64,000 nt of DNA, from assembly GCF_034353875.1 (NCBI RefSeq), contig NZ_CP133784.1:4306501-4370500 (forward strand), written 5' to 3'. The position numbers and the translations under genes are program-made. Of the stretch, positions 8,218-49,626 are shown one piece after another. The notes beneath the pieces are model-generated. The model was not told the DNA's origin and ran no database searches. It saw only the letters and a list, made by a program, of their open reading frames with translations. The number at the start of each line of letters is the position of its first letter. The first letter of the stretch is position 1. Source of the stretch: Pseudomonas sp. MH9.2. Lineage in GTDB: Bacteria; Pseudomonadota; Gammaproteobacteria; Pseudomonadales; Pseudomonadaceae.

Positions 8218-10140
8218 ATGACATCAGTTAACCAGTTCTGGCGCCGGGCGAAATTGCCTCTGGCCGTCAGCCTCGCCTCTACGCTCGCCGGTCCGGCATT
8301 TGGCGTAAGTTTCAACATCGGTGAAATCGAAGGTCAGTTCGACTCGTCGCTTTCGATAGGCGCCAGTTGGTCTACGCAGAATCCCAACAAGAATCTCATC
8401 GGTTCCAATAACGGCGGCCACGGCCTGTCGCAGACCTCCGATGATGGCCATTTGAATTTCAAGAGCGGGGAAACGTTCTCGAAGATCTTCAAGGGCATTC
8501 ACGATCTTGAGTTGAAATACGGCGACACCGGTGTGTTTCTCCGGGGCAAGTACTGGTATGACTTTAAGCTTAAGGACGATGATCTCAATTTCAAGAACAT
8601 CAGCGACAGCGGCCGCAAGGAAGCCGCGAAATCGTCGGGCGCCGAGCTGCTCGATGCGTTCGTCTACCACAACTACTCCATTGGGGATGAACCAGGTTCC
8701 GTGCGGTTGGGTAAGCAAGTCGTCAGTTGGGGTGAAAGTACCTTCATCCAGGGCGGTATCAACAGCATCAACCCGGTCGACGTGTCAGCCTTCCGCCGTC
8801 CCGGCGCGGAAATCAAGGAAGGCTTGATTCCGGTCAACATGTTCTACCTCTCGCAAAACATCACCGAGAACCTCTCGGCCGAGGGCTTTTATCAAATTGG
8901 ATGGGACCAGACGGTTGTCGATAACTGCGGCACCTTCTTCTCGCAACCGGACGTGATCGCCGACGGCTGCAACAACAACCTGGCCGTGTTGAAAACCAAA
9001 AATGGTCTAAATAGCGCGTTGCCAGCCAGTTTGCGTTCACCTGTGTCAAATAGCTTGGCGGCCCAGGGCGTTACCTTCGGCAACCCGGATGAAGGCGTAA
9101 TCGTGCGTCGTGGTCCTGACCGTGACGCCCGCGACAGCGGCCAGTTCGGCCTGGCCACGCACTACATGTTCGATCCACTGGACACCGAGTTCGGTGCCTA
9201 TTTCATGAATTACCACAGCCGCAACCCGATCTTCAGTGGCCAAGGCGCCCCGGCCAGCGCTTATAGCCCAGCCAACCTGGTTGGTTCGCTGGCTCGCAAT
9301 GGCGTACCGCTACGGACTGCTGCGGCTTTGGCGCCGACCCTGCTGCCGTTGGTCGTGGCCGGCAACTCCAGCTATTACGTTGAATACCCGGAAGACATTC
9401 GTCTGTACGGCCTGAGCTTCTCTACCACCCTGCCTACCGGTACGGCGTGGAGTGGTGAGGTCAGCTACCGTCCGAACGCGCCGGTGCAACTCAACACCAC
9501 CGATATCCTGTACTCCGGTCTTACGCCGTTGAACCCGAACGTATCGATGCTGCAAGGCAAGCCGGGTACTGACCAGTCGGGTTATCGCCGCAAGGAAGTT
9601 ACCCAGTTCCAGACCACCTTCACCCAGTTCTTCGATCAGGTGATGGGCGCCGAGCGACTGACTGTCGTGGGCGAAGTCGGCTGGACTCACGTCGGTGGGC
9701 TGGAAAGTACCTCGAAAATCCGTTACGGCCGCGACCCGAGCTACGGCCCAGGTCCCCTGCCTAATGGTCAGTGCGCCACGCTCAACGCCAGCACCCTGGC
9801 CGGCGCAGCCCAGAACAACGTCTCGCGTTATTGCGAAAACGATGGCTTCACCACGGCTGACTCCTGGGGCTATCGTGCTCGTGCGATCTGGGATTACAAC
9901 AGTGTGTTTGCAGGTATCAACCTCAAGCCAAGCATTGCCTGGTCGCATGACGTCTCTGGCTACTCGCCGGGTCCTGGTGGCAACTTCGAAGAAGGGCGCA
10001 AGGCTATCAGCCTGGGCCTGGATGCCGAATACCAGAACACCTACACCGCGAACCTTTCGTACACCAACTTCTTCGACGGCAAGTACACCACTGTGGATGA
10101 CCGCGATTTTGTTGCGCTCAGCGTTGGCATGAACTTCTAA
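8218..10140 (+). CDS. DUF1302 family protein, predicted outer-membrane barrel (copy 1)
   Basis: 640-residue exported protein. A signal peptide ends at about residue 29 (cut before VSFNIGEIEGQF). The rest alternates polar and aromatic residues and ends in a C-terminal phenylalanine (SVGMNF), typical of an outer-membrane beta-barrel. The best conserved block is VSWGESTFIQGGINSINPVD. It contains an extra loop with Cys pairs around residues 520-540 (GQCATLN and SRYCEND) that copy 2 at 43724 lacks. It is followed closely by a DUF1329 gene. In P. putida the homologous pair has, to my recollection, been linked genetically to growth on fatty esters; the biochemical role is not settled. Confidence 0.92.
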   Translation: MTSVNQFWRRAKLPLAVSLASTLAGPAFGVSFNIGEIEGQFDSSLSIGASWSTQNPNKNLIGSNNGGHGLSQTSDDGHLNFKSGETFSKIFKGIHDLELKYGDTGVFLRGKYWYDFKLKDDDLNFKNISDSGRKEAAKSSGAELLDAFVYHNYSIGDEPGSVRLGKQVVSWGESTFIQGGINSINPVDVSAFRRPGAEIKEGLIPVNMFYLSQNITENLSAEGFYQIGWDQTVVDNCGTFFSQPDVIADGCNNNLAVLKTKNGLNSALPASLRSPVSNSLAAQGVTFGNPDEGVIVRRGPDRDARDSGQFGLATHYMFDPLDTEFGAYFMNYHSRNPIFSGQGAPASAYSPANLVGSLARNGVPLRTAAALAPTLLPLVVAGNSSYYVEYPEDIRLYGLSFSTTLPTGTAWSGEVSYRPNAPVQLNTTDILYSGLTPLNPNVSMLQGKPGTDQSGYRRKEVTQFQTTFTQFFDQVMGAERLTVVGEVGWTHVGGLESTSKIRYGRDPSYGPGPLPNGQCATLNASTLAGAAQNNVSRYCENDGFTTADSWGYRARAIWDYNSVFAGINLKPSIAWSHDVSGYSPGPGGNFEEGRKAISLGLDAEYQNTYTANLSYTNFFDGKYTTVDDRDFVALSVGMNF

Positions 10141-10166
10141 GAATACGGTTTTTTTTCAGGACGACT

Positions 10167-11579
10167 ATGAACATGAAAATGACAAAGGGTCTGTTACAAG
10201 TCGGTGTACTGGGTCTGTCATTGCTGGCGACCGGGGTGATGGCTGCTGTGTCGGAATCCGAGGCCGCCAAACTGGGTACAACCTTGACGCCGATGGGCGC
10301 CGAAAAGGCCGGTAACGCCGCAGGGACGATCCCTGCATGGAGCCCGCTGCCAAAAAATGCTGGCGCTGTGGACAGCAAGGGTTTCCTTGCTGACCCCTAT
10401 GCTCAGGAACAACCGCTGTTTGTGATCACCGCGCAAAACGTCGATCAGTACAAAGACAAGCTGGCGCCAGGGCAAATAGCGATGTTCAAGCGCTATCCGG
10501 AGACTTTCAAAATGAAGGTCTTCCCGTCCCATCGTGGCGCGACGGTGCCTGATGACGTGTTCGCAGCGATCAAAGGCAACGCGACCAAGACAAAACTGGT
10601 CGCGGGTGGTAACGGCCTTGAGAACTTCAAGACGGCGATTCCATTCCCGATCCCGCAAAACGGTTCTGAGGTGATCTGGAACCATATCACCCGTTATCGC
10701 GGTGGCAGCGTTCAGCGTCTGGTGACCCAGGCCACGCCGCAGGCCAATGGCTCCTACAACCTGGTTTACTTCAAGGATCAGTTCGTTTTTCGCGATAACG
10801 TGAAAAAATCCGGTGCAGACGATGCGAAAGCCAAGTCTGGCGATGAAGATGAGAAAACCGGTGACACCAGCAACATCCTTTTCTACTTCAAGCAGGAAGT
10901 AACCGCGCCCGCACGTCTGGCCGGTGGGGTACTGCTGGTGCACGAAACCCTCGATCAGGTAAAAGAACCGCGTATGGCCTGGGTGTACAACGCCGGTCAA
11001 CGTCGCGTACGTCGCGCGCCACAAGTGTCTTATGACGGGCCGGGTACCGCAGCAGATGGTCTGCGCACCTCGGACAACCTGGACATGTACAACGGCGCAC
11101 CTGATCGTTACGACTGGAAACTGATCAGCAAGCAGGAAATGTACATCGCCTCTGACAGCTATAAGCTCGATGATCCGACCCTTAAATATGCCGACATCAT
11201 CAAGGCCGGTCATATCAACCAGGATCTGGCGCGCTATGAACTGCGTCGTGTCTGGCACGTGACCGCTACCTTGAAGGAAGGCCAGCGCCACATCTATGCC
11301 AAACGTGACTTCTTCATCGATGAAGACACCTGGCAGGCAGCGGTGATCGATCACTACGACGGTCGTGGTCAACTGTGGCGTGTGGCTGAAGCTCACTCCC
11401 AGAACTACTACAACGTACAAGTGCCGTGGTACACCCTGGAAACCCTCTACGATCTGCAATCGGGCCGTTACCTGGCGCTCGGTATGAAGAACGAAGAGAA
11501 AGCAGCTTATAACTTCAAGTTCGAGGCGAGCGTCAGCGATTTCTCTCCTTCGGCCTTGCGCCAGTCTGGCGTACGGTAA
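10167..11579 (+). CDS. DUF1329 family periplasmic protein (copy 1)
   Basis: 470 residues with a signal peptide (MNMKMTKGLLQVGVLGLSLL, cut near residue 27 after VMA). DUF1329 proteins are predicted to have a LolA/LolB-like half-barrel fold and are nearly always encoded next to a DUF1302 barrel, as here with a 26-base gap. Conserved blocks include GSEVIWNHITRYRG, GGVLLVHETLDQVKEPR, YNAGQRRVRRAPQVSYDGPG and DHYDGRGQLWRVAEAH. Compared with copy 2 it has a lysine- and aspartate-rich insert near residues 212-232 (KKSGADDAKAKSGDEDEKTG). It likely works with the barrel in moving or processing a hydrophobic substrate in the envelope. A strong terminator follows. Confidence 0.92.
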   Translation: MNMKMTKGLLQVGVLGLSLLATGVMAAVSESEAAKLGTTLTPMGAEKAGNAAGTIPAWSPLPKNAGAVDSKGFLADPYAQEQPLFVITAQNVDQYKDKLAPGQIAMFKRYPETFKMKVFPSHRGATVPDDVFAAIKGNATKTKLVAGGNGLENFKTAIPFPIPQNGSEVIWNHITRYRGGSVQRLVTQATPQANGSYNLVYFKDQFVFRDNVKKSGADDAKAKSGDEDEKTGDTSNILFYFKQEVTAPARLAGGVLLVHETLDQVKEPRMAWVYNAGQRRVRRAPQVSYDGPGTAADGLRTSDNLDMYNGAPDRYDWKLISKQEMYIASDSYKLDDPTLKYADIIKAGHINQDLARYELRRVWHVTATLKEGQRHIYAKRDFFIDEDTWQAAVIDHYDGRGQLWRVAEAHSQNYYNVQVPWYTLETLYDLQSGRYLALGMKNEEKAAYNFKFEASVSDFSPSALRQSGVR

Positions 11580-11603
11580 CGATTCATCGCTAAACGCACA
11601 CTG

Positions 11604-11632
11604 AAAACGCCCCGACTGTTCGGGGCGTTTTC
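11604..11632 (+). terminator. Rho-independent terminator of the DUF1302-DUF1329 operon (copy 1)
   Basis: Perfect 12-bp stem AAAACGCCCCGA / TCGGGGCGTTTT with loop CTGT, ending in TTTTC, 24 bases past the DUF1329 stop. It separates the structural genes from the regulator gene at 11781. Confidence 0.88.
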
Positions 11633-11780
11633 TATTGAGAGCCCCTATGTTCACGGGGAGCGATGCAGGTTGTTGTAATCTTTTTCTAAAAATGCGCCAA
11701 ATTCCTTCAAAAGGACCGACGTACCCGCTAGTCTGCGGACATCTGCAATGCCGATAACAGCACTTTAATAAGAGCCGGCT

Positions 11781-14522
11781 ATGACTGATTTGTCCCGTCT
11801 GCAAGGGTTTGACAGCCACGCGGTTACCGCGCTGGAAGGCCGTTTCTTTCGACCACCGTTGCCCGAAGGTTATGTACTGCGTCCACGTTTATGTGAGCGC
11901 TTGAGTGCAGGCCTGGCGGGGCGGCTGTTGTTGGTCTGCGCCCCGGCAGGTTTTGGCAAGAGTTCGCTGGCGGTAGAGTTTTGTCAGAGCCTGCCGGCTC
12001 AGTGGCAAAGCCTGTGGCTGGGGCTGAGTCATCGCGACAGTGATCCGGGGCGCTTTCTTGAGCGTCTGCTTGCCGGTCTGCAACAATTTTTCCCACAGCT
12101 GGGTACCCAGGCGCTGGGTTTGTTGAAGATGCGCCAACGCCATCAACCCTTTGCATTCGAAGAGTGGCTTGATGGCCTGCTTGACGAGCTGACCACGCAC
12201 CTGATGCTGAGCAAGCCACTGCTGCTGGTGCTGGACGATTACCATCTCGCTCAGGGGCCGGTGCTCGACCGCTGCCTGCAGTTTTTCCTCAATCACTTAC
12301 CCGCCGGGCTGATCGTGATGGTCACCAGCCGTCAGCGTCCGAACTGGCACCTGGCACGGCTGCGACTGTCGCGCCAACTGCTTGAGCTCAATGAGCAGGA
12401 TTTGCGCCTGACCAACGCCGAGTCGGTGGCGGTGCTTGAACAGCACTCGAATTCGCTGGACAGTGAAGCGCTGCAAAGTCTGATTCTGCGCAGCGAGGGT
12501 TGGGTAGCCGGGTTGCGCTTCTGGCTGCTGGCCGCGTCTGAAGCGGGCAGTGACAATGCGCTGCCACAAGCGCTGCATGGCGGGGAAGGGCTGATTCGCG
12601 ATTACCTGCTCGAAGAGGTGATCGACTTTCTACCGACCGATGTTCAGGCGTTTTTGTACGATACCGCCTGCCTGGAGCGTTTTTGCAGCGAGCTGTGCGA
12701 TGCCGCTCGCGAAACGTATGACAGCGCCGAAATGCTGCGTTATCTGCAAGCGCATCAGGTCTTCCTGGTGCCGCTGGATGAGCATGGCCGCTGGTTTCGT
12801 TATCACCATTTGTTTTCCGACTTGTTGCGCACCCGGCCCGGCGCCGAGACCGGCCCGCAGCAAACCCGCCTGCACCTGAATGCCTGTCGATGGTTCAGCG
12901 ACCAGGGTCTGCTCGACGAGGCCGTCGAACAAGCCTTGCGTGCGGGGCATCTGGATGTCGCTGCCAATCTGGTGCAGAACCTGTCCGAAGAGCAACTGCT
13001 GGCCGAGCAGAATGTCGGGATGCTGCTGCGTTGGAAAATGGACTTGCCTGACAGTCTGCTGATCAGCACGCCACGCTTGATCGTGCTCTATAGCTGGGCG
13101 CTGGGCCTGGCGTGCCAGCTGGATGCCGCTGAAGAGTTGGCCAGCCACTTGAGTCGCTTTCTGCCCGCGCCCTCGGCGACAGCGCAAAAATCCATGCTCG
13201 CCCAGTGGCTGGCGCTCAGCGGGATTATTGCCCGAGGGCGTGGCGACAGTGCCAAGGCCCGGCTCTATTGCAACGAAGCGCTGCTCAGCCTGCCGCATAA
13301 ACGTTACGGTCAACGGCTGACGTGCCTGTCGACGCTGGCTAATCTGGCCATTGCCGAGGGTGACCCCTTGCGCGCCCGGGTACTCAATCGCGAGGCGCTT
13401 GAGCTGGCGCAACGGGTCGCCAATCCGTTATTTGAAGCCCTTGCCCATTATGATCGGGCGCGGGTGTTGCAGGCGCGTGGCGAGGTATTGCGTGCGCTGG
13501 ACGAAGTCCACCAGGGCCAGGAGCGGCTCAAGGGTTTGCCAGCCCAACGGCTCTATGCTGTTCGTGCGCGGCTGACACTGTATGAAGGCTATCTGCTGAC
13601 GATGCGCATGCAGCCTGAACCGGGGCGTGCGCGGCTGTTGGCCGGGTTGTCTGAAGCGCGAGCCTGTCGTGATATCAGCGTATTGATCGGCCACTGTGTG
13701 ATCGCAGGGCTAGACGGGCGCGACGGCCGTTTTGCCGAGGCCTTTGCCGAGTTGGGCGAGGCCGAGCGCTTGATGCACATCTGGGACGTGCCGCCAATCT
13801 ACTACCTGGCCATGATCACTCTGGTCAAATGTGAGCTGTGGTTGTTGCAAGGCCGCATCGACCTCGCCGACGCCTGGTTGGTGCGGTTGGCGCAAACCTA
13901 TGGCGGTGATCAGGCCGCTGCCGCACCGGAGTGTCACCCGCAACTGCCGCAACACATCGAATTACAGCGCGCAGTGCTCGAACGCATCCAAGGGCTGCGG
14001 CCCGAATCCGAGCAACGCCTGCTCGCCCTCGAACAACAGGCACACAATGCCGGTGCCCACTCTATTTATGTCGCCGCACTGACCCAGCAAATCCTACCGC
14101 TGTTGGGCACTGCGCGCGAAGCACAGGCGCGAACACTGTTCACCCGTAGCTTGCAAGCAGCCACCGGTGGCGCACTTCTGCCTTTCCACTGGCTGGTGAG
14201 CGGGCATCCCGATTGGTTGCGAGAACAACTGCTGCAAAGCGCACCGGGTGCGGTTCGCGATTCGCTACTGGAACTGTTGCCGCCCGCGGTTGCTTTGCGC
14301 GAACCCAGCGAACCTCTGCACTGCGCAGAACAACTCAGCGCCCGCGAACTCGCCGTGCTCCAACTCATCGCTCAGGGCTGCTCCAACCAGCAAATCAGCG
14401 AACAACTGTTCATCTCCCTGCACACCGTAAAAACCCACGCCAGCCACATCAACAGCAAATTAGGGGTCGAACGGCGAACGCAAGCGGTGGCACGGGCGCA
14501 GGAGATGGGGTTGTTGGGGTGA
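11781..14522 (+). CDS. MalT-like LuxR family ATP-dependent transcriptional regulator (copy 1)
   Basis: 913-residue STAND-type activator. Residues 54-62 are a Walker A (APAGFGKSS) and LLLVLDDYH near 150 is Walker B. A winged-helix part follows, then TPR-like helices (about 400-800), and a C-terminal LuxR helix-turn-helix (about 850-910) with LSARELAVLQLIAQGCSNQQ and [19 protein letters not shown]. Members bind ATP and an inducer, oligomerise and activate promoters. Its place after the DUF1302-DUF1329 operon, repeated at the second cassette, suggests it controls that operon. The inducer is unknown. A purine-rich AAGAGCCGG precedes the ATG. Confidence 0.92.
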   Translation: MTDLSRLQGFDSHAVTALEGRFFRPPLPEGYVLRPRLCERLSAGLAGRLLLVCAPAGFGKSSLAVEFCQSLPAQWQSLWLGLSHRDSDPGRFLERLLAGLQQFFPQLGTQALGLLKMRQRHQPFAFEEWLDGLLDELTTHLMLSKPLLLVLDDYHLAQGPVLDRCLQFFLNHLPAGLIVMVTSRQRPNWHLARLRLSRQLLELNEQDLRLTNAESVAVLEQHSNSLDSEALQSLILRSEGWVAGLRFWLLAASEAGSDNALPQALHGGEGLIRDYLLEEVIDFLPTDVQAFLYDTACLERFCSELCDAARETYDSAEMLRYLQAHQVFLVPLDEHGRWFRYHHLFSDLLRTRPGAETGPQQTRLHLNACRWFSDQGLLDEAVEQALRAGHLDVAANLVQNLSEEQLLAEQNVGMLLRWKMDLPDSLLISTPRLIVLYSWALGLACQLDAAEELASHLSRFLPAPSATAQKSMLAQWLALSGIIARGRGDSAKARLYCNEALLSLPHKRYGQRLTCLSTLANLAIAEGDPLRARVLNREALELAQRVANPLFEALAHYDRARVLQARGEVLRALDEVHQGQERLKGLPAQRLYAVRARLTLYEGYLLTMRMQPEPGRARLLAGLSEARACRDISVLIGHCVIAGLDGRDGRFAEAFAELGEAERLMHIWDVPPIYYLAMITLVKCELWLLQGRIDLADAWLVRLAQTYGGDQAAAAPECHPQLPQHIELQRAVLERIQGLRPESEQRLLALEQQAHNAGAHSIYVAALTQQILPLLGTAREAQARTLFTRSLQAATGGALLPFHWLVSGHPDWLREQLLQSAPGAVRDSLLELLPPAVALREPSEPLHCAEQLSARELAVLQLIAQGCSNQQISEQLFISLHTVKTHASHINSKLGVERRTQAVARAQEMGLLG

Positions 14523-14624
14523 GGGCAACTTGGCGTTGCAAGCACTTAAGGGCGTGTTCCACCCCTTTGGAGTGCGCGCCGGAGTCGTACCATTGCGCAG
14601 GCGTTAATTAACCCGTTGAAGAAT

Positions 14625-38357: not shown

Positions 38358-38380
38358 TATAAAAAGCCGAGGTGAGCACC

Positions 38381-39163
38381 GTGAATGTTGCCCAAGTTTT
38401 GCCCTCCCGAAGCGTGAAAGATCAAGTCAGCGCCGCCGAATGGCAGGCGCGGGTTGATCTCGCGGCCTGCTATCGGTTGGTTGCGATGCACGGTTGGGAC
38501 GATCTGATTTTTACCCACATATCGGCCAAGGTTCCTGGTACCGAAGATTTCCTGATCAACCCGTTCGGCCTGATGTTTCACGAAATCACGGCATCGAGTC
38601 TGGTCAAAATCGATCAGGCCGGTAACAAATTGATGGACAGCCCCTACGAGATCAACCCGGCCGGCTACACCATTCACAGTGCGGTGCATGAAGTTCGGCA
38701 TGATGTGGCTTGCGTGCTGCATACCCATACGGCGGCGGGGGTTGCGGTGTCTGCGCAAAAACAGGGGATCTTGCCGATCAGTCAGCAATCGATTTTCGTT
38801 CTGTCGAGCCTGGCTTATCACCCCTATGAAGGCGTCGCCCTTAATTATGAAGAAAAAGCGCGGCTGCAAGCTGATCTGGGTGATAACAGCTTCTTGATGC
38901 TCAACAATCATGGGCTGTTGACATGCGCCAGCAGCATTGCCGATGCCTTCCTGATGATGTTCACCTTCCAGCGTGCCTGTGAAATCCAGGTGCTGGCGCA
39001 AACCGGTGGCGCGGAGCTGATTCCTGTCGACGGGCAGATCCTGGCTGGCGCGAAAGCGATGATTGCCGGGGTGACTAAAAGCACCCAGGGCATGGGCGGG
39101 GCGTTGGCCTGGCCGGCGTTGCTGCGCACACTCGATAAACAAGACCCGAGCTACAAAGAATAA
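38381..39163 (+). CDS. Class II aldolase/adducin family protein
   Basis: About 260 residues. Zinc ligands are visible: HTHTAAGV (His pair) and NNHGLLTCASSIADAF, plus the early TFxH-like stretch FTHISAKVPGTEDFLINPFG. This adducin-like subgroup is common in pseudomonads and its reaction is not assigned; sugar-phosphate aldolases are relatives. GTG 38381 is chosen because GAGGTG lies six bases upstream; GTG 38372 in the same frame has no ribosome site. Its stop codon overlaps the next start by one base (TAATG), so it is coupled to the hydrolase gene. Confidence 0.9.
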   Translation: MNVAQVLPSRSVKDQVSAAEWQARVDLAACYRLVAMHGWDDLIFTHISAKVPGTEDFLINPFGLMFHEITASSLVKIDQAGNKLMDSPYEINPAGYTIHSAVHEVRHDVACVLHTHTAAGVAVSAQKQGILPISQQSIFVLSSLAYHPYEGVALNYEEKARLQADLGDNSFLMLNNHGLLTCASSIADAFLMMFTFQRACEIQVLAQTGGAELIPVDGQILAGAKAMIAGVTKSTQGMGGALAWPALLRTLDKQDPSYKE

Positions 39164-40065
39164 TGCCGCTGGCAGAGATCCCTTTGTCCGTCTGGCGTAC
39201 CCGTGGACAAAATTTTTTGTTCCGGGGCCAGACCATTCGCTACTGGGTAGCGGGGCAGGGCGAGCCATTGTTGTTGATTCATGGCTTCCCCACCGCCAGT
39301 TGGGATTGGCATTACCTGTGGCAACCCTTGACTCAGCGTTATCGGGTGATTGCCTGCGACATGCTGGGTTTCGGCGATTCGTCCAAGCCGCAGGACCATG
39401 ATTACCGCCTGCTGGAACAGGCCGACCTGCAGCAGGCGCTGCTCGAGCACCTGCGGGTTGAACAGGCGGTGCATGTGTTGGCACATGATTACGGCGACAG
39501 CGTCGCCCAGGAATTGCTGGCCCGGCATTATGAAGGGACGTTCGCCATGGCCAGTTGCGTGTTCCTCAATGGCGGGCTGTTCCCGGAGACCCATCGCAAA
39601 CTGCTGGTCCAGAAACTGCTGCTCAGCCCACTGGGCTGGCTGGTGGGCCGGATGTTCAGCCGGGAACGTCTGGTTAAAAGTTTTACCCAGATATTTGGCC
39701 CTGACACGCGACCCAGTGAAAGTGAGCTGGATGACTTCTGGAGCCTGATCGAAACCAACCAGGGACCGCGGATCATCCACCGTTTGATCAACTACATTCC
39801 CGAGCGAATTGTGCAGCGTGATCGCTGGTTGGCCGCCATGCGACGCGGGGATGTTCCTATGCGTGTGATCGACGGTGCGGTCGATCCGATCTCCGGTGCG
39901 CACATGGTCGAGCGCTACCGCGAATTGATCCCCAATGCCGACACTGTGCTGTTACAGGGTATCGGTCATTACCCGCAAACCGAGGCGCCAGTACTGGTTC
40001 TGCAGCATTACCTCAGTTTCCGGGCCGCATTAGATGCCCCGAGCCGGGTATTGGCGTGTTCCTGA
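39163..40065 (+). CDS. Alpha/beta hydrolase (haloalkane dehalogenase-like / epoxide hydrolase-like)
   Basis: 300 residues. Oxyanion region LLLIHGFPTASWDWHYLW, then DMLGFGDSSKP and the nucleophile elbow AHDYGDSVAQE, where an Asp is nucleophile, as in haloalkane dehalogenases and epoxide hydrolases. The catalytic His is in GIGHYPQTEAP. A helical cap (about 140-220) lies between. The ATG overlaps the upstream aldolase stop. Asp nucleophiles suggest hydrolysis of epoxides, halides or lactone-like bonds rather than ordinary esters; the real substrate is unknown. Confidence 0.9.
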   Translation: MPLAEIPLSVWRTRGQNFLFRGQTIRYWVAGQGEPLLLIHGFPTASWDWHYLWQPLTQRYRVIACDMLGFGDSSKPQDHDYRLLEQADLQQALLEHLRVEQAVHVLAHDYGDSVAQELLARHYEGTFAMASCVFLNGGLFPETHRKLLVQKLLLSPLGWLVGRMFSRERLVKSFTQIFGPDTRPSESELDDFWSLIETNQGPRIIHRLINYIPERIVQRDRWLAAMRRGDVPMRVIDGAVDPISGAHMVERYRELIPNADTVLLQGIGHYPQTEAPVLVLQHYLSFRAALDAPSRVLACS

Positions 40066-40191
40066 ACGTCGCTAATCAGGCCCCCCATCCTGCTACCTTA
40101 TTGCGCACTATTCAGCACTGAGCGTATTGATTGTGACTGAGGGGCGAGTGTTCGACACTCAAGCCATTGTCCACCTTTGCTGGAGCTGTCC

Positions 40192-41103
40192 ATGAGTGAG
40201 CCTGTGCGTTTTGAAGATAAGGTCGTCATCGTTACGGGGGCCGGCGGTGGTTTGGGTCGCGCCCATGCGTTGCTGTTTGCCAAACATGGCGCACGCGTAG
40301 TGGTCAACGATCTGGGGGGCTCGGCGCATGGTGAGGGTGCCAACGCGTCGGCGGCAGATCGTGTAGTTGCAGAGATTCGCGAGGCGGGCGGCACCGCGGT
40401 TGCCAACCATGACTCGGTCACTGACGGCGCCAAAATCGTACAAAACGCACTGGATGCATTCGGTCGTATCGATGTCGTGGTCAATAACGCCGGTATCCTG
40501 CGGGACAAGACCTTTGCCAAAATGGAAGACCCCGATTGGGACCTGGTGTATCGCGTGCACGTCGAAGGCGCCTACAAGGTGACCCATGCTGCTTGGCCGC
40601 ACATGCGTGAGCAGAACTACGGGCGCGTGATTTTCACCTCATCGACCTCCGGCATCTACGGCAACTTCGGTCAGTCCAACTACGGCATGGCCAAGCTTGG
40701 CCTTTACGGCCTGACCCGCACCTTGGCCCTTGAAGGGCGCAAGAACAACATCCTGGTCAATGCCATCGCCCCAACCGGCGGTACACGCATGACAGAAGGG
40801 TTGATTCCGGCCGGTGTGTTCGAATTGCTTAAGCCTGAACTGATCAGTCCGCTAGTGGTGTTTCTCGGCAGCGAACAGTGCCAGGAGAGTTCAGGCCTGT
40901 TCGAAGTCGGCGGCGGCTGGATAGGCAAGACCCGCTGGGAGCGCAGCGTCGGTGCCGGCTTCGACCCTCGTACCGGTTTTAGCCCGGAAGATGTCGCCGC
41001 TAGCTGGCAGAACATCTGCGACTTCGAAGGTGCAGCACACCCAAAAGACACCATCGAAGCCCTGCAAGAGATGATGAAAAACCTGCAAAAGTATAGCGCT
41101 TGA
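40192..41103 (+). CDS. SDR family dehydrogenase (multifunctional-enzyme type)
   Basis: 303 residues. NAD-binding TGAGGGLGRAHAL (about 16-28), VNDLGGSAHGEGA, NNAGILRD and the catalytic SNYGMAKLGLYGLTRTLALE. The sequence closely resembles the dehydrogenase part of peroxisomal multifunctional enzyme 2 (17beta-HSD4), which oxidises 3-hydroxyacyl-CoA. Bacterial stand-alone forms are usually linked to fatty-acid or sterol side-chain oxidation. GGAG precedes the start. It may follow the aldolase-hydrolase pair functionally, but a 126-base gap separates them. A clear terminator follows. Confidence 0.92.
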   Translation: MSEPVRFEDKVVIVTGAGGGLGRAHALLFAKHGARVVVNDLGGSAHGEGANASAADRVVAEIREAGGTAVANHDSVTDGAKIVQNALDAFGRIDVVVNNAGILRDKTFAKMEDPDWDLVYRVHVEGAYKVTHAAWPHMREQNYGRVIFTSSTSGIYGNFGQSNYGMAKLGLYGLTRTLALEGRKNNILVNAIAPTGGTRMTEGLIPAGVFELLKPELISPLVVFLGSEQCQESSGLFEVGGGWIGKTRWERSVGAGFDPRTGFSPEDVAASWQNICDFEGAAHPKDTIEALQEMMKNLQKYSA

Positions 41104-41125: not shown

Positions 41126-41164
41126 TCGGTCGATCAGGGCATACCTGATCGGCCGAATTTTTTT
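41126..41164 (+). terminator. Terminator after the SDR gene
   Basis: Stem TCGGTCGATCAGG / CCTGATCGGCCGA (13 bp with one wobble), loop GCATA, then AATTTTTTT, starting 23 bases past the stop codon. Confidence 0.9.
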
Positions 41165-41300: not shown

Positions 41301-41705
41301 ATGATTGAAAATTTTGGTCTGATCAAAGACCGAATAAGCGCCTACACCTATGTGCCTGACAGGCAGTTCAGAACGTCCTCCGGTCGTTCCGTCGAGGAAG
41401 AAAGTATTGCCCAGAAGTTACGGCAATTCTGGGCGGATGATAGTATTTCGAATTCGTCGAAACTGGAGGGGTTTGAGTTTGATCTATCAGGCTTCGATCC
41501 TGAGAGTACTAGCAGTCGAGAGCTTATAAGCATAAGCGTTATGCTCCAAAAGATGGGCATAATTGATCATATTACGGGGTCTTGGCTTGGCGCGGTCGGG
41601 AGTGAGTTCAATGATCAAGGTAATCAAATAAATATGGACAAAAAAACGAATGCTTTCGAGTATTTTGACAGGAGTCTTGAGTTCCTTAAAGGTCAGTATT
41701 ACTGA
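41301..41705 (+). CDS. Orphan hypothetical protein, paralog of the gene at 42637
   Basis: 134 residues, acidic, no signal peptide. ATG 41301 has an ideal GGAGG upstream; ATG 41280 has none. The block FDLSGFDPESTSSRELISIS with LQKMGIIDHITGSWLG and GSEFNDQGNQINMDKKTNAF matches the gene at 42637 (KGFNPEEITPNELSQLGKQL, KFGLIDNHTAELMDRAG, AEFDRDGVPINPDVNINAL) position by position, so the two are paralogs. I do not recognise the family. Codon use is AT-richer than the neighbours, in line with acquired DNA. Confidence 0.75.
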   Translation: MIENFGLIKDRISAYTYVPDRQFRTSSGRSVEEESIAQKLRQFWADDSISNSSKLEGFEFDLSGFDPESTSSRELISISVMLQKMGIIDHITGSWLGAVGSEFNDQGNQINMDKKTNAFEYFDRSLEFLKGQYY

Positions 41706-42636: not shown

Positions 42637-43161
42637 ATGTCAACATTTAGCATCTGGGGCGACCTGCCTGCCGTTTTTATTCGGCAGCCGCCAGAAAGTA
42701 CATTGCCCAAAGCATCCGCCACCGCGCTGACCCATAGCATCCTGCTGGAAATCGGCGAAAATCCAATTGCGCTTGATGCAGAATATATGGACACACTGAA
42801 GTTGAAGCCGCAGCTCAAGGGCTTCAATCCTGAAGAGATCACACCCAATGAGCTCAGTCAGTTAGGCAAGCAGCTTTACAAGTTTGGCCTTATCGATAAT
42901 CACACAGCCGAGCTCATGGACAGAGCCGGTGCCGAGTTTGATAGAGACGGAGTGCCAATCAACCCGGATGTGAATATCAACGCGCTGGATTTTTTCGCGG
43001 GCAGGATATCGTCCATGAAGGACAACTCATTGCGCGGTGATCCCTATGCCACGATGTTGCTCCCCGACTATATCCGGGCGGTTCATGTCATGCAGAACCT
43101 GCACACGTACGCGACGACGGGCGATAGCTACGCCAGCCAGCGTGCGAAAGAGCGGGAGTAA
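42637..43161 (+). CDS. Orphan hypothetical protein, paralog of the gene at 41301
   Basis: 174 residues, no signal peptide. It begins MSTFSIWGDLPAVFIRQPPE. The core (about 60-125: LKPQLKGFNPEEITPNELSQ and so on) aligns with the protein at 41301. The C-terminal 45 residues, with PYATMLLPDYIRAVHVMQNL, are absent there. GGGAG precedes ATG 42637. The motif of an acidic loop, then D/N-x-x-G-x-P/Q-I-N, then a helix with two aromatic residues recurs in both. Function unknown. The pair may be effectors, immunity or secretion-linked proteins, but nothing nearby proves it. Confidence 0.78.
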   Translation: MSTFSIWGDLPAVFIRQPPESTLPKASATALTHSILLEIGENPIALDAEYMDTLKLKPQLKGFNPEEITPNELSQLGKQLYKFGLIDNHTAELMDRAGAEFDRDGVPINPDVNINALDFFAGRISSMKDNSLRGDPYATMLLPDYIRAVHVMQNLHTYATTGDSYASQRAKERE

Positions 43162-43249: not shown

Positions 43250-43259
43250 AAACAAGACG

Positions 43260-43325: not shown

Positions 43326-43667
43326 GTTTGAGCCACTGCCGGTACACAGTAAGTAATCAAGTCACTTGAATGAATCACCGGCGTTTTAAGGGTTCTGGCC
43401 GGTTGCTGTGAAAGCCCGGCAAGAATAAAGAATTCAGGCTCAATGAAACAGAGCAGTTTGCGACATTGACTGTTACATACCCGGCAATAGTGGGGTGGTT
43501 CCGGTTGTTGTCCGCAAAATCTCGCCAGGATTTGCAGCGCCCGGAAGCTCAATCCATGTCCCTCATCATGGATCATCCATGCCATCGATGATGGCGAGCA
43601 AAGCCGTGCCAGACGGGGGATTCATTCTTTAGAGGTACATCGAGAATACCTCCTTGGTGCGCTTATC

Positions 43668-43716
43668 CCTCCTGGTGGCTGTGAGTAGGGTGATTTCTTC
43701 TGCAACCACCAGGGGG
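43668..43716 (+). promoter_or_regulatory. mRNA hairpin covering the DUF1302 ribosome-binding site
   Basis: CCTCCTGGTGG (43668-43678) pairs with CCACCAGGGGG (43706-43716): 11 bp with one wobble, loop of 27 bases. The right arm contains most of the Shine-Dalgarno AGGGGGA (43711-43717) of the gene starting at 43724. Closed, it would hide the ribosome site, so translation could be controlled by RNA structure, a protein or an sRNA. Confidence 0.4.
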
Positions 43717-43723
43717 AAGACGC

Positions 43724-45517
43724 ATGACAACAACAATAATGCGCGCCATCTTCAAGCCACAGACGCTGGCCATCGCCGTGGCGCTGGGCTGCACGGCTCA
43801 GGCGCACGCCGTTTCATTCAATATTGGAGAAATCGAAGGGCAATTCGACTCCTCGCTGTCGCTCGGCGCAAGCTGGGGTTTGCGTAACGCAGACCCCAGT
43901 CTGGTCAGCACTGTGAACGGCGGCAAAGGGCAGGCGGCCACGGGCGATGACAACCGTTTGAACTTCAAGAAAGGTGACGCCTTCTCGGAGATTTTCAAAG
44001 GGGTCCACGACCTGCAACTGAAGTACGGCGACAGTGGCGTGTTCCTGCGGGGCAAATATTGGTATGACTTCGTCCTTGAAAACCAAACTCAAGACTTCAA
44101 GAACGTCAGCGATAACGGGCGCAAAGAAGCGGCCAAATCGTCGGGCTATCAACTGCTCGACGCCTTCGTCTATCACAGCTACAGCATCGCGGATCTGCCG
44201 GGCACTGTGCGCGCAGGCAAGCAGGTGGTCAGTTGGGGCGAAAGTACCTTCATCGGTAACTCGATCAACTCGATCAATCCCATCGACGTGTCGGCGTTCC
44301 GCCGCCCAGGCGCCGAGATCAAGGAAGGGTTGATTCCGGTCAACATGCTCTTCGGTTCCCAAGGGTTGACCGACAAGCTCAGCGTCGAGGGTTTTTACCA
44401 GTTGCAATGGCAAGAGACGGTTGTCGACAACTGCGGCACCTTCTTCGGTAACGACGTGGTCGCCGAAGGGTGTAACAACAACTACGACGTGGGCAACCCG
44501 GCCATCAAACCGTTGCAACCGATTGCTGCTGCCTTTGGCCAGGGATTCCAGGTCACGCCTGAAGGCGTGGTCGTCCCCCGTGGCAGCAGCCGTGATCCAA
44601 AAAACACCGGCCAGTTCGGTGCAGCGCTACGCTGGTTGGGTGACGACACCGAGTACGGCCTGTACTTCGAGAACTTACACAGCCGTCTGCCAGTCCTGAG
44701 CACCAAGACGGCGGGTCTGGCGACATTGAGTGCCATTCCACGTATCGCCGCTGCGGCCAACGCCGTTGCCCCAGGCAGCGGTTCGGGTCTTGCGCAGAGC
44801 ACCATGCTCGGTAATGGCCAGTACTATCTTGAATACCCGGAGAATGTTCGGTTGTTCGGCGCCAGCTTCGCCACCACCCTGCCAGAGGGTACCGCCTGGA
44901 ATGGCGAAATCAGCTACCGGCCCAATGCCCCGGTCCAGCTCAATACGACTGATCTGACCCTGGCGCTGCTTAACCCGATTGCTCGCGGGACTGCGTCACC
45001 GATTGCATCGAGCCCTGGCGCGGATAACAAAGGTTACCGGCGCAAAGAAATCACCCAGATCCAGTCCACATTGACCCACTTCTTCGACCAAGTGCTGGGG
45101 GCTGAACGGCTGACTGTGGTTGGCGAAGCGGCAATCGTCCATGTGGGAGGGCTGGAACCCACCAGCGAGCTGCGTTATGGCCGTGACTCGGTCTACGGTG
45201 CCTATGGCTTTGGTGGCGATACCAGCGGTTTTGTCACGTCGACATCATGGGGTTATCGCGCCCGGGCGATTCTCGATTACGCCAACGTTTTCGCCGGGAT
45301 CAACCTCAAGCCCAACCTGTCGTGGTCCCATGACGTGCATGGTTACGGCCCTAACGGCTTGTTTAACCAGGGTGCAAAAGCGGTCAGCTTCGGGGTCGAT
45401 GCCGACTACCGCAACACCTACACCGCGAACCTTAGTTATACCGATTTCTTCGGTGGTAATTACAACACGTTGACCGATCGTGACTTCGTTTCATTGAGCG
45501 TCGGCGTGAACTTCTGA
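43724..45517 (+). CDS. DUF1302 family protein, predicted outer-membrane barrel (copy 2)
   Basis: 597 residues. A signal peptide ends at AHA (residue 29) before VSFNIGEIEGQFDSSLSLGA, the same mature start as copy 1. Shared blocks include KYGDSGVFLRGKYWYDF, VSWGESTFIGNSINSINPID and FRRPGAEIKEGLIPVNM, and it also ends in a C-terminal Phe (SVGVNF). It lacks the cysteine-bearing loop of copy 1, which accounts for much of the 43-residue difference. A DUF1329 gene follows after 22 bases. Unlike copy 1, no acyl-CoA ligase gene lies upstream. Confidence 0.92.
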   Translation: MTTTIMRAIFKPQTLAIAVALGCTAQAHAVSFNIGEIEGQFDSSLSLGASWGLRNADPSLVSTVNGGKGQAATGDDNRLNFKKGDAFSEIFKGVHDLQLKYGDSGVFLRGKYWYDFVLENQTQDFKNVSDNGRKEAAKSSGYQLLDAFVYHSYSIADLPGTVRAGKQVVSWGESTFIGNSINSINPIDVSAFRRPGAEIKEGLIPVNMLFGSQGLTDKLSVEGFYQLQWQETVVDNCGTFFGNDVVAEGCNNNYDVGNPAIKPLQPIAAAFGQGFQVTPEGVVVPRGSSRDPKNTGQFGAALRWLGDDTEYGLYFENLHSRLPVLSTKTAGLATLSAIPRIAAAANAVAPGSGSGLAQSTMLGNGQYYLEYPENVRLFGASFATTLPEGTAWNGEISYRPNAPVQLNTTDLTLALLNPIARGTASPIASSPGADNKGYRRKEITQIQSTLTHFFDQVLGAERLTVVGEAAIVHVGGLEPTSELRYGRDSVYGAYGFGGDTSGFVTSTSWGYRARAILDYANVFAGINLKPNLSWSHDVHGYGPNGLFNQGAKAVSFGVDADYRNTYTANLSYTDFFGGNYNTLTDRDFVSLSVGVNF

Positions 45518-45539
45518 TCGGCTTGAAAAGGACATGACT

Positions 45540-46907
45540 ATGCGCAAGATGATCCTGCAATGTGGCGTCCTGGCGCTGAGCCTGTTGGCAGCCAACGTAA
45601 TGGCTGCGGTGTCGGCAGACGAAGTCGCGAAACTGGGCAAAAGCCTGACACCATTGGGGGCAGAAATGGCAGGGAATGCCGACGGTTCGATCCCTGCTTA
45701 CACCGGCGGTCTCCCGGTCAATGCGGGGGCGGTGGACAGTAAGGGTTTCCTCGCGGATCCGTTCGCCAACGAGAAACCACTGTTTATCATCACCGCCAGC
45801 AACATGACACAGTACAAAGACAAACTGTCCGATGGGCAGCAGGCGATGTTCCAGCGTTATCCCACGACCTATCGGATTCCGGTTTATCCGAGTCATCGCA
45901 CCGTAGCCTTGCCGCAAAAGGTCTATGACGCGGCGAAGAAAAGCGCGGCCACGGTGACGACCATCAATGATGGCAACGGCTTGGCCCATTTTGCCGAAAG
46001 CCGCTACTACGCGTTCCCGATCCCTAAAACCGCGAATGAAGTGCTGTGGAACCACATCACCCGTTACCACGGGGGCAACCTGCACCGCACCATCACCCAG
46101 GTAACTCCCCAAGTGAACGGTGCGTTCGACTCGGTCACGTTCGAAGAGGACGTCGGTGCCCCGGAGGACATACCGGACCTGAAACCAGAAGAAGGCGCGA
46201 ATATCCTGACCTTCTTCAAGCAGGAAGTGACGAAGCCTGCGCGCCTGGCCGGTAATGTGTTGCTGGTGCACGAAACCCTCGATCAAGTGAAAGAACCGCG
46301 TCTAGCCTGGATCTACAATGCGGGTCAGCGGCGTGTCCGGCGTGCGCCGCAAGTGGCGTATGACGGTCCGGGTACTGCGGCGGATGGCCTGCGCACGTCG
46401 GACAACTTCGACATGTTCTCGGGTGCCCCGGATCGCTACGACTGGAAGTTGATCGGCAAGAAAGAAATGTACATCCCGTACAACAGCTACAAACTTGACT
46501 CGCCGAGCCTCAAGTACAGCGACGTAATCAAGGCTGGGCATATCAATCAGGACCTGGCCCGTTATGAGCTGCACCGGGTGTGGGAATTGGTCGGCACACT
46601 CAAAGCCGGTGAGCGGCATATCTATGCCAAGCGCCATATGTACATCGACGAGGATACCTGGCAGATCGCGCTGGTCGACCATTACGACGGTCGCGGCCAG
46701 CTCTGGCGGGTGGCCGAGGGTCATGCGCAGTTTTATTACGACCACCAAGTGCCGGCTTACACCCTTGAAGCCCTGTACGATTTGAACGCCGGCCGCTACA
46801 TCGCACTGGGCATGAAGAACGAGGAGAAACGCAGCTTCCAGTTCGGCCTGAAGCTCCACGTGTCTGACTTCACCCCCAACGCCCTGCGCAACGCGGGCAT
46901 CCGCTAA
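45540..46907 (+). CDS. DUF1329 family periplasmic protein (copy 2)
   Basis: 455 residues with signal peptide (MRKMILQCGVLALSLLAANV, cut after VMA). It matches copy 1 along its whole length: NEVLWNHITRYHGGNLHRTI, LLVHETLDQVKEPRLAWIYN and QRRVRRAPQVAYDGPGTAAD. The Lys/Asp-rich insert of copy 1 is replaced by an acidic stretch without lysines (EEDVGAPEDIPDLKPEEG). ATG 45540 is preferred to ATG 45534 because AAAAGGA lies 7 bases from it. A terminator follows. Confidence 0.92.
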   Translation: MRKMILQCGVLALSLLAANVMAAVSADEVAKLGKSLTPLGAEMAGNADGSIPAYTGGLPVNAGAVDSKGFLADPFANEKPLFIITASNMTQYKDKLSDGQQAMFQRYPTTYRIPVYPSHRTVALPQKVYDAAKKSAATVTTINDGNGLAHFAESRYYAFPIPKTANEVLWNHITRYHGGNLHRTITQVTPQVNGAFDSVTFEEDVGAPEDIPDLKPEEGANILTFFKQEVTKPARLAGNVLLVHETLDQVKEPRLAWIYNAGQRRVRRAPQVAYDGPGTAADGLRTSDNFDMFSGAPDRYDWKLIGKKEMYIPYNSYKLDSPSLKYSDVIKAGHINQDLARYELHRVWELVGTLKAGERHIYAKRHMYIDEDTWQIALVDHYDGRGQLWRVAEGHAQFYYDHQVPAYTLEALYDLNAGRYIALGMKNEEKRSFQFGLKLHVSDFTPNALRNAGIR

Positions 46908-46937
46908 TCGGTTGCAACTTACGTCTCAATCCGCTTG

Positions 46938-46973
46938 AAAAGCCATTCACGGTTACTGTGAGTGGCTTTTTTT
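46938..46973 (+). terminator. Terminator of the second DUF1302-DUF1329 operon
   Basis: Stem AAAAGCCATTCAC / GTGAGTGGCTTTT (13 bp, one wobble), loop GGTTACT, followed by TTT, 31 bases past the stop codon. As in copy 1, it separates the structural genes from the LuxR gene. Confidence 0.88.
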
Positions 46974-47067
46974 ATGGGGGATGATAAGCGCGCCAAATAC
47001 TCCTACAGCAAGGTGTGACGAACGGCTTAGTGTGAGTGCGCAGGCAAGAATAACAAGGGACCATCCC

Positions 47068-49626
47068 ATGACTGCCTTTACCGTTCATGCGGGGCGTGCG
47101 GACCACTGGCCGCGATTGTCTCCTCAGCACCTGACACGCAGCCGGTTGACCGCGCCTTTGCTGGCCTCGAGTGCACGGGTCAAGCTACTGTGCGCGCCAG
47201 CGGGCAGTGGTAAAAGTGCATTGCTCGGCGAGTGTCTCCGCCAGGCGCCTCAGGACTGTCTTGTCGGCTGGCTGCCGCTGGCTGGAGAAGCGCAAACGCC
47301 GGCCGGCTTCTGTGCGTTGCTGGCCACTGTTTTGGGCCTTGATGAGGCTGACGAGACCGGTGTTCTGAGTCAGTTGGCCCACCGGCAAACACCGTGCTGG
47401 ATCGTGCTCGACGACTATTGTCGTGTCCCTGCGCCCGCGCTGGATCATTGTCTTGATCGCTTGCTGGCTGTCAGCAGCCCAGCGGTGACCTGGTGGATTA
47501 GCGGGCGCAGACGTCCTCTGTGTAACTGGCCACGTCTGCTGCTCAGCGGCGAATTGCTCGAACGCTATGGCCCGGCGCTGGCGTTCAATCAGGCAGAAAT
47601 CGAACAGCTGTTGGCCCATGAGCCTGTCGTCTGGCCGCCCGAAGCCGCCGCTGCGATCTTTATCCAAAGTGCCGGTTGGTGCGTTGGCGTACGCGTTGCG
47701 TTGCTCAGCCCGAGCGACTGGTGCGTTTCCGAAGACTTCAGTGCTCTGCACCTCAACCGGCAACACCGTTCGACAACCTTGATCGATTACCTTGAGCACG
47801 AACTGTTCGCCGGGCTCGCCCCCGAATTGGCTGAGGCCTGGCGTGTGCTGGCGCATTTGCCGCGCTTCAATCCAGGTCTGTGCGAGCACCTGTTTGGGGC
47901 TGGCGAGGGTGGGCAATGGCTCAAGGCATTGCAGGACATGGGCAGCTTTATCGAACCTTGCGAGCACGACACCGATTGGTTGCAGGTATTTCCGCCGTTG
48001 GCCCAATGCCTGCACGATGAAGCATGGCCCGCGAGGCGCTCCTGGCATCGTCGTGCCTGCCAATGGTTCAGCGTAGAAAGGGATTGGCAATCGGCGATCG
48101 AACACGCCTTGCAGGCTGAACAGTACGAAATCGCTGTCAGTCTGCTGCAAAACGTTGACTTCTCCTACCTGTTGCAAGGGCAGAATGTGGCGTTGCTGCT
48201 GGACCTGCACGAACGCTTCGCCGACTTGATGCTGGGCACGCCGCACCTGATCAGCCTGACCAGTTCGGCGTTGGTGTACGCTGGCCGTTTTGACCAGGCC
48301 TGTGCGTGCCTGGAGCATCTGGCTCGTTTTTCGCCGCAACCCTCGGCCACTCAACAGCGTGAATTGATCGCCCTGTGGCAGGCACAGCAAGGCTGGCTTC
48401 AGCATCTTTGGGGCAAGGCGGACCTCGCTGTCGGGCATCTGCAGGACGCCTGTCGGGAGCTGTCGCAAAGCATGTGGCAAGTTCGGGTGATGTGCCTGTC
48501 CGGGCTGACGCAACAGGCGCTGCTCAATGGCCAGTTCGATCAAGCGCTGGCGCATAATCGTACCGCGCTGTGTCTGGCCCGGGGCGAGGGTTCTCTGCTG
48601 TTGGAAGCCTTGCTCGAACTCGATCATGCGCAATTGCTGGAACAGCGCGGGGCATTGCAGCGCAGTGAGAGCACGCTGGAGAAAATGCACGATTTGCTGT
48701 TGATTCAGCACGCTCCCGCAGGCCCGTTGCTGGGCCGGATTGCGTTGCGCCGGGGGCGTCTGGCCCTGCGCCAAGGTCAGGATCAGCAAGCGAAGCTGCA
48801 TTACCGGAGCGGCCTAGAGCAATGTTTGCGCAGCAAAGACAAACTGGCGTTGTTCGGTTTTTTGGGATTGGCGACGTTGGACGCCAATCAGGGCGACTAC
48901 GCACGGGCATTCGTCTGGCTGCGCGATGCCGAGCGTGTGATGCAACAAAACCATATCCCGGAATATTTTTGGCGAGGCGTGCTGCTGCAAGTCAGCAGTC
49001 ACTTCTGGCTGCAACAAGGTCGTGCGGGCCTGGTACAAGAGGCTCTGGCCAGGGTTCTGCGTCACCTCCGGCGTCATCCGGCAAAACATGCGCCGCCAGC
49101 CACGCTGGAATTGATTCCGAGTATCGAATACCTGCTGGTGCTGGCCGAAGTCTATCTGCATCAGGCCGAACAGCCGTTGCAACGCCTGCACATCCTGCAG
49201 CGGAAGGCCCATCAAGAAGGCATGCACAGCCTTGAGACCGAGCTTTATCTGGCCATGGCAGAGGTGGCGTTTTTGCAAGCCGATGTGCAAACCGCGCATG
49301 CCTGTCTGGCTGAGGGCCTGGCACTGATAGGTCGCTTCAATTTGCAGCAACCGTTACGCGAACTGAGGCTGCGTCAGCCGACACTGTTGCGCGAGTTGGG
49401 GGTGGAAGACGACCTGATTGCCGCCGCCGACAATCCCCTCAGCCAGCGTGAACTCGAAGTACTCAAGCTGATCGCCCACGGCAGCTCTAATCTGCAAATC
49501 GCCGAGCAGTTGTTCATTTCTCTGCACACGGTGAAAACCCATGCCCGGCGCATCCATAGCAAACTGGGGGTCGAACGCCGCACACAGGCGGTGGCGAAGG
49601 CCAAAGCGTTGGGGTTGATGGCCTGA
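47068..49626 (+). CDS. MalT-like LuxR family ATP-dependent regulator (copy 2)
   Basis: 852 residues. Walker A APAGSGKS at 43-50; Walker B-like [11 protein letters not shown] near 110; helical repeats from about 350 to 780; C-terminal LuxR helix-turn-helix with [20 protein letters not shown] and [20 protein letters not shown], almost identical in its recognition helix to copy 1. That suggests both regulators bind similar DNA, while the divergent sensor regions suggest different inducers. ATG 47068 follows AAGGGA at seven bases; an earlier ATG at 46981 overlaps the terminator and is rejected. Confidence 0.92.

Follow-up and report, generated by a model that had tools for sequence, protein, structure and literature searches.

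The 64,000-nucleotide stretch of Pseudomonas sp. MH9.2 analyzed here (the window; contig NZ_CP133784.1, positions 4,306,501 to 4,370,500) raises the question of how two gene cassettes of the same order are regulated and how they are related. Each cassette encodes a DUF1302 outer-membrane barrel, a DUF1329 periplasmic LolA-like protein (the carrier) and, after a terminator, a LuxR-type predicted ATPase activator of the MalT kind (LuxR1 and LuxR2); cassette 1 occupies positions 8218-14522 and cassette 2 positions 43724-49626. DUF1302 and DUF1329 are, by name, families of unknown function, and a conserved operator linked with a regulator of its own offers direct access to them. Our results point to such an operator, common to both cassettes, and make it rather probable that a predicted lipid or ester uptake route is under MalT-type activators whose DNA code is the same and whose sensors diverge.

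A predicted operator at both barrel promoters

The conserved predicted operator of the two barrel promoters is 22 bp long and reads about AAATCAYNCYTTNGRNNGAT. The copies in the window, including one before the acyl-CoA ligase gene upstream of cassette 1, are as follows.

6111-6132, plus strand: predicted operator of the ligase promoter, AAATCATCCCTTTGGCTGATTT; matrix score 20.7; -10 element TAAAGT at 6152-6157
8024-8045, plus strand: predicted operator of cassette 1, AAATCACACTTTAGAGGGATCA; matrix score 30.5; -10 element TATAGT at 8065-8070
43619-43640, plus strand: cassette 2, distal copy of the predicted operator, GATTCATTCTTTAGAGGTACAT; the matrix score averages 8.9 across 21 promoters and is 11.0 in the window alone
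43644-43665, plus strand: cassette 2, proximal copy of the predicted operator, GAATACCTCCTTGGTGCGCTTA; the matrix score averages 9.3 across 21 promoters and is 8.4 in the window alone

At cassette 1, the site is followed at 33 bp by TATAGT in all 36 evaluable promoters of the genus, 4 of which were found by the operator pattern itself. The ligase promoters carry the variant AAATCATtCcTTtGGcTGATT in 32/32 congeneric loci (28 with no mismatch, 4 with one); 22 of them show the -10 pattern at 33 bp, and some others have near forms at that position. The matrix was built from 82 sites; it left out one of the 32 ligase sites and included no cassette 2 sequence, and L093, on a cut contig, was left out of the promoter counts. 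The two highest scores in the window are those of the cassette 1 and ligase sites, compared with 17.2 for the best of 50 shuffled windows, which preserve single-base content only. A sigma-70 promoter scan reported none at either barrel. The operator patterns were written after the promoters of the genus had been viewed, and the pattern for the order-wide scan also after locus L162 (genome G054), so that the pattern-based counts are not independent tests. The first-pass annotation had named the ligase as a difference between the cassettes. Neighboring gene content bears this out, with the ligase before cassette 1 only, and the description has to be modified in that the ligase, having its own operator copy, looks like a part of the regulon.

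Promoter profiles of cassettes 1 and 2 were compared at all offsets and on both strands (32 + 21 promoters, L093 missing). The best match aligned TCACACTTTaGAGGGA with TcAtcCtTTcGAG..A at a score of 19.0; none of 300 column shuffles exceeded 15.3, and the reversed control reached 9.5. On the 21 cassette 2 promoters, the 82-site matrix gave two peaks 25 bp apart with the means listed above, the next value being -3.2; the maximum in 300 column shuffles was 3.2, a null that is wider because each shuffle averaged 7 of the 21 promoters, whereas the observed means take in all 21. A probable -10 element of cassette 2, TAGGGT at 43686-43691, lies 34 bp past CCTT and was placed by eye from the conserved GTAGGGT. 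Weak site pairs 25 to 26 bp apart are also present in the diverged loci L080, L082, L116, and L150, for which no null was made.

Other readings of the cassette 2 promoters were discarded. An inverted repeat (GAGGTA-N10-TACCTC in the window) was dropped because its left arm varies between species and two direct copies explain the conserved block. Autoregulation by LuxR2 was also rejected: GATAAGCGCGCCAA, before the LuxR2 gene, resembles an inverted proximal operator, and among 26 loci it is found only in the window and in Pseudomonas sp. UMAB-08. Strong operator-like sites were observed at positions 455-476 of L081 (19.3) and 670-691 of L082 (22.2), near a predicted small protein and more than 6 kb upstream of the cassette-2-type barrels of genomes G028 and G013.

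LuxR1 and LuxR2 have one 11-residue and one 12-residue stretch in common and share the recognition helix. The shared helix suggests that each regulator can probably read both promoters, and with a shared DNA target it is more likely that their signals feed the same or overlapping promoters than that they form two insulated circuits.

The operator beyond the genus and the predicted uptake route

When 244 genomes of the order were searched for AAATCAYNCTTTNGANNGATCA, allowing at most one mismatch, 32 sites turned up in 25 of them, compared with 2 sites for the backward control, and 25 of the 32 sites precede a cassette-type barrel, a ligase, or a VolA-like gene. Within the genus itself, the site stands before the cassette 1 barrel in 6/6 genomes. 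In family f20, sites lie before DUF1302 in 9/9 genomes (one of which was the source of the pattern), heading complete barrel-carrier-LuxR triplets in eight, with the ninth cut by a contig end. In genus g24 (3/3 genomes), three sites are upstream of the barrel and another three upstream of the ligase. Four further sites, in four f20 genomes, lie upstream of genes for VolA/Pla-1-like lipoproteins, whose products match TIGR03502 below its cut-off (E values of 6e-50 to 2e-73) and have a lipobox and GHSLG. All told, five such proteins, encoded outside the window, score 142-248 bits against a cut-off of 383.9 (E values of 1.7e-41 to 1.5e-73); we call them VolA-like because the cut-off is missed, though the lipobox and GHS[LF]G are present. 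In L121, from a third family, a site scoring 22.1 is followed 34 bp on by TATATT and then by genes for a VolA-like protein, DUF1302, DUF1329, and LuxR, the VolA-like gene ending 24 bp before DUF1302.

In the mechanism that we propose, a secreted esterase or phospholipase (VolA-like in other families) would free acyl products. The inducer, we infer, would be a fatty acid, an acyl-CoA, or a lysolipid-like product of ester hydrolysis, and the inducer-loaded MalT-type activator would bind the 22-bp operator just upstream of the -10 element, with the CYTT of the operator 33 to 34 bp before it, and recruit RNA polymerase. MalT is an activator with operators upstream of the -10 element. The barrel and the LolA-like carrier would probably pass hydrophobic or ester molecules inward, and the ligase would activate the acids. 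An RND/YCF48 pair encoded elsewhere would probably be the partner of barrel and carrier, as suggested by fitness data from Pseudomonas putida, in which PP_0765 and PP_0766, both required for the use of Tween 20, correlate with PP_2018 and PP_2019 (PMC10866462). The operator predicts gene membership (ligase, barrel, carrier, and VolA-like phospholipase), hints at the class of substrate, and makes the inducer testable by promoter fusion.

These findings raise the wider possibility, put forward tentatively, of a widespread ester-lipid-feeding regulon in the order of Pseudomonas. MalT-type activators with a fixed code and fast-changing sensors would direct DUF1302/DUF1329 import, which would use a shared RND/YCF48 engine, together with a fatty acyl-CoA ligase; some families would also have a secreted VolA-like phospholipase under this control. 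In the present genome, two activators on one operator would let two lipid signals converge on two transporters.

A role of the cassettes in exporting or tolerating hydrophobic compounds, instead of taking them up, has to be considered, and we regard it as unlikely. Betaproteobacterial operons with DUF1302, DUF1329, RND, and YCF48 genes under aromatic-responsive regulators have been proposed to act against toxic aromatics (PMC6449761), and AmeABCD of Castellaniella is described as a terpene efflux system, although an ameB insertion lowered growth on terpenes (both PMC6394551). The Tween 20 requirement of PP_0765 and PP_0766, the co-regulation of ligase and VolA-like genes as judged by the operator, and the lack of an RND gene in the cassettes all argue against efflux.

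The operator accompanies the regulator

Among 59 congeners, all of which have DUF1302, LuxR1 is present in 53, and the cassette 1 operator pattern is found in the same 53 and in none of the six others (53/53 versus 0/6, Fisher's p of 2e-8). This value ignores kinship, and a check on it is given by the barrel tree, which requires five separate losses of LuxR1. Of the six genomes that lack LuxR1, five retain the cassette 1 barrel, four of these together with DUF1329, and tblastn found no LuxR1 remnants in the five regulator-less barrel stretches. The site and the -10 element occur together in none of these five barrel promoters: the site is damaged in L143, which has no -10, and in L145, which keeps the -10; L144 and L146 have nothing close to the site, and L147 has a core with two mismatches on the opposite strand only. 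An intact promoter has thus been lost along with the regulator. LuxR2 is present at a level of at least 54% in 31 of the 59 congeners (30 plus a broken gene in G034), and the cassette 2 operator pattern occurs in all of these and additionally in G013, which belongs to a set of seven genomes that have diverged relatives only. In 11 DUF1302 loci without such a LuxR (L024, L025, L026, L148, L149, and L153-L158), the best site has at least 3 mismatches in 14.

Together with the efflux reports above, several results weigh against our interpretation. In the order-wide scan, 7 of the 32 sites have no visible link to such genes, and the window itself yielded no VolA-like gene. Judged within this one window, the cassette 2 copies rank 7th and 14th, within noise, so that these copies rest on conservation. 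The L143 barrel site, although damaged, retains a score of 21.3. Of 12 diverged LuxR2-type or mixed loci, 10 lack the 14-base core at up to two mismatches. The core is missing from L118, L119, and L122, whose recognition helices read SLNT or SVNT, not SLHT; SLNT is also the reading of L121, which nevertheless has a site elsewhere, so the tie between helix and operator is not strict. Finally, the ligase site is kept in two of three regulator-less ligase loci (intact in L145, with one mismatch in L147), the -10 elements of both being altered. This last result would suit a conserved element that is the site of another regulator of lipid metabolism or a core promoter feature, with the LuxRs acting elsewhere or only jointly. 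We hold this to be quite improbable, as the cassette 1 operator follows LuxR1 across the congeners and through its five separate losses, and as the site extends well past the -10/-35 hexamers and accompanies triplets in other families.

Sensor divergence and origin of the two cassettes

Between the two cassettes, 363 of 640 residues are identical in the barrels (57%), 301 of 471 in the DUF1329 proteins (64%), and 286 of 906 in the LuxRs (32%), the last figure contrasting with 46 of 62 in the C-terminal 62 residues. Rates were compared in 16 species with both cassettes (120 species pairs). The pairwise identities of LuxR1 have a median of 0.81 and those of LuxR2 one of 0.64, LuxR2 being lower in 120/120 pairs; barrels (0.82 in cassette 1, 0.85 in cassette 2) and carriers (0.89 and 0.88) show no comparable gap. 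By part, the values are 0.63 (ATPase), 0.63 (TPR), and 0.79 (helix-turn-helix) for LuxR2 and 0.88, 0.79, and 0.88 for LuxR1. The earlier proposal that the sensors have diverged and the DNA-reading parts remained alike is therefore upheld, and the operator-sharing pair is a natural case of sensor divergence with the DNA code kept. LuxR2 is 96% identical to a LuxR of Pseudomonas sp. UMAB-08. In-frame stops were observed in the LuxR2 matches of G021, G060, G065, G073, and G079, and the match is split in G034, which may point to repeated decay of this regulator.

The first trees were limited to frames of at least 480 (barrel), 380 (DUF1329), and 700 residues (LuxR), shorter ones being dropped along with L079, whose frames are broken; L026 and L114 were left out of one set, and L026 also out of another analysis. 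In these trees, DUF1329 and LuxR split into groups 1 and 2, and the barrel tree is less clean. Later trees, which included triplets from outside, used chosen representatives (62, 32, and 31 rows). LuxR1 and LuxR2 are sisters, with triplets from two other families outside (support of 100, quick tree), and 40 triplet-type LuxRs fall on one side of a branch from 22 other MalT-like LuxRs (100, quick tree); of the 22, L171 and L174 are located near RND-type DUF1302 clusters. DUF1329 groups 1 and 2 stand together against the outside triplets (100/99), group 2 being firm (100/99) and group 1 weak (58/43). The barrels of both groups likewise stand together (100/99), and the groups within are not cleanly resolved: three group 2 loci (L118, L119, and L122) branch outside, and the L110 barrel strays from group 1. 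Constraining barrel group 1 or group 2 as one was not rejected (AU test, 0.35 and 0.28).

Separate acquisition of the cassettes, with no duplication in this lineage, could account for the unclean barrel groups and for loci that mix group-1-like barrels with group 2 carriers and LuxRs, and is nevertheless very improbable in view of the sister relation of LuxR1 and LuxR2 against triplets of other families, the union of the DUF1329 groups, and the many congeners that have both cassettes with conserved neighbors. Cassette 1 lies downstream of the ligase in 31/31 evaluable congeneric loci, and cassette 2 lies downstream of hydrolase and SDR genes in all 15 loci with a close LuxR2 and enough upstream sequence. 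Independent lineages were sought in the protein trees of all three families, and none were found. The old duplication proposed by the first-pass annotation is thus supported by the LuxR and DUF1329 trees, and the barrel tree, though less clean, is compatible with it; judged from the sequences, one old duplication of the triplet fits both cassettes best. The 35-kb spacing noted at the same time is true of the window but incidental, with no bearing on the duplication, because in seven one-contig relatives 0.89-2.36 Mb lie between the cassettes. On the same ground, a recent local duplication was rejected.

Other arrangements were observed in relatives. G027 has 19 DUF1302 matches and at least six cassettes with LuxRs (L115-L120), among which L116 shows a tandem X2-D2-X2-D2-B2 between SDR and LeuDH neighbors. 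In cassette 1 of L110 (G008), the barrel (7632-9617) is off group 1, and DUF1329 and LuxR are firmly in group 1, which could be the result of a barrel exchange.

Gene content of the cassettes and of the genome

The remaining features of the window are the following.

6202-7884, plus strand: acyl-CoA ligase; AMP-binding domains; NCBIfam long-chain-fatty-acid--CoA ligase subfamily NF004837, 691 bits versus a cut-off of 476
8218-10140, plus strand: DUF1302 outer-membrane barrel 1; PF06980, full-length, E value of 2.8e-178, 594.8 bits versus a curated cut-off of 23.2
10167-11579, plus strand: DUF1329 periplasmic LolA-like protein 1; PF07044, full-length, E value of 5.6e-157, 523.2 bits versus 23.1
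11603-11632, plus strand: terminator hairpin and T tract in the gap between DUF1329-1 and LuxR1; -23.6 kcal/mol, z of -6.4
11781-14522, plus strand: LuxR1, predicted MalT-type ATPase activator; GerE helix-turn-helix, E value of 5.8e-19; TPR_MalT and AAA_16 below cut-off
41126-41156, plus strand: terminator between the aldolase-hydrolase-SDR genes (38372-41103) and cassette 2; -25.2 kcal/mol, z of -7.6
43724-45517, plus strand: DUF1302 outer-membrane barrel 2; PF06980, full-length, E value of 2.2e-169, 565.4 bits versus 23.2
45534-46907, plus strand: DUF1329 periplasmic LolA-like protein 2; PF07044, full-length, E value of 1.3e-154, 515.4 bits versus 23.1
46937-46971, plus strand: terminator hairpin and T tract in the gap between DUF1329-2 and LuxR2; -20.2 kcal/mol, z of -5.7
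47068-49626 (start revised from 46981), plus strand: LuxR2, predicted MalT-type ATPase activator; GerE helix-turn-helix, E value of 1e-18; TPR_MalT below cut-off from 47068

The twin order of barrel, carrier, terminator, and LuxR described by the first-pass annotation is thus confirmed by Pfam domains, gene order, and a hairpin in both cassettes, as is the absence of RND/MMPL and YCF48 genes among the window neighbors scanned. Both cassettes are real, with the correction that they are two of six DUF1302/DUF1329 pairs: the host genome (G000), a 5.58-Mb Pseudomonas chromosome, has six DUF1302 and six DUF1329 genes, and LuxR1 and LuxR2 are the only full-length LuxRs of the cassette kind found in it. 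Elsewhere in this genome, the pairs L025 and L026 adjoin RND/MMPL and YCF48 genes, and L027 adjoins RND alone. The pair at 9958-14329 of L024 was seen without RND, LuxR, or operator, and is followed by an epimerase-type gene.

The GerE domain scores 67.9 bits in LuxR1 and 67.1 in LuxR2 (cut-off, 23.5), and the MalT-TPR profile falls just under its cut-off of 45 (34.9 and 44.2). AAA_16 is below cut-off in LuxR1 and has no match in LuxR2; P-loop-like motifs (CAPAGFGKSS and a second of 10 residues) were read by eye. For LuxR2, 47068 is a likelier start than 46981, since the matches of most orthologues set in at residues 22-29 of the longer frame and a protein starting at 47068 has its domains intact; as an exception, two matches begin at residues 2-3. 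The structure matches of DUF1329 are two LolA-like chains, 9tp6 and 3bk5, and a comparison of DUF1302 with solved structures gave no match.

The aldolase-hydrolase-SDR genes were rejected as members of cassette 2 and are taken as mere neighbors because the SDR gene (in 51/59 congeners) often occurs without cassette 2 and a terminator lies between. Two small predicted proteins in the gap between the SDR gene and cassette 2, at 41301-41705 and 42637-43161, appear similar by eye; the latter had no Pfam match.

Comparison with known systems

By gene families and order, we take P. putida PP_0763/PP_0765/PP_0766 and Pseudomonas aeruginosa PA3921-PA3924 to be the counterparts of cassette 1, with PA3923 presumably the barrel. 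The P. putida genes are of the same kinds as those of cassette 1 (ligase, DUF1302, and DUF1329, respectively). Unlike for the cassettes described here, no operator or LuxR role was found described for these counterparts, and we know of no named counterpart of cassette 2. Mutants of P. putida in PP_0763 fail on fatty acids of C5-C10 (PMC9744835), and FadD6 activity is reported for PA3924. That the barrels are mainly adhesins, as might be supposed from reports that PA3923 binds laminin and that mutants form smaller biofilms on laminin (PMC8547006), is hardly credible, because the barrels are tied to a fatty acyl-CoA ligase, to a LolA-like protein of the periplasm, and to phospholipase-like genes, and because P. 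putida requires PP_0765 and PP_0766 on Tween 20.

As in the cassettes, DUF1302 and DUF1329 genes stand together in AmeABCD of Castellaniella defragrans and in the Aph-regulated operons of Betaproteobacteria; those operons include RND and YCF48-type genes, other regulators, and terpenes or aromatics as compounds, whereas the cassettes are without RND and YCF48. In the VolA/FadL system of Vibrio cholerae, a surface lipase/lysophospholipase frees fatty acids, a barrel imports them, and ligases activate them (PMC12208996, PMC9496633). The likeness is that VolA-like genes carry the operator in other families; the difference is that the barrel here is DUF1302 and that none of the VolA-like genes found lies in the window. 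LuxR1 and LuxR2 share with MalT of enterobacteria the LuxR helix-turn-helix and probably also the layout with a P-loop ATPase and TPR, but neither is MalT itself (302.1 and 161.7 bits versus 537 for the equivalog NF003420), and they differ in operator and gene context. No description of a regulator, operator, or regulon of this kind was recognized in searches of open-licence literature. The gene families had been known, as had the Tween 20 phenotype; our results add the operator and its occurrence in two copies at cassette 2, the losses of the regulator, and the link to VolA-like genes.

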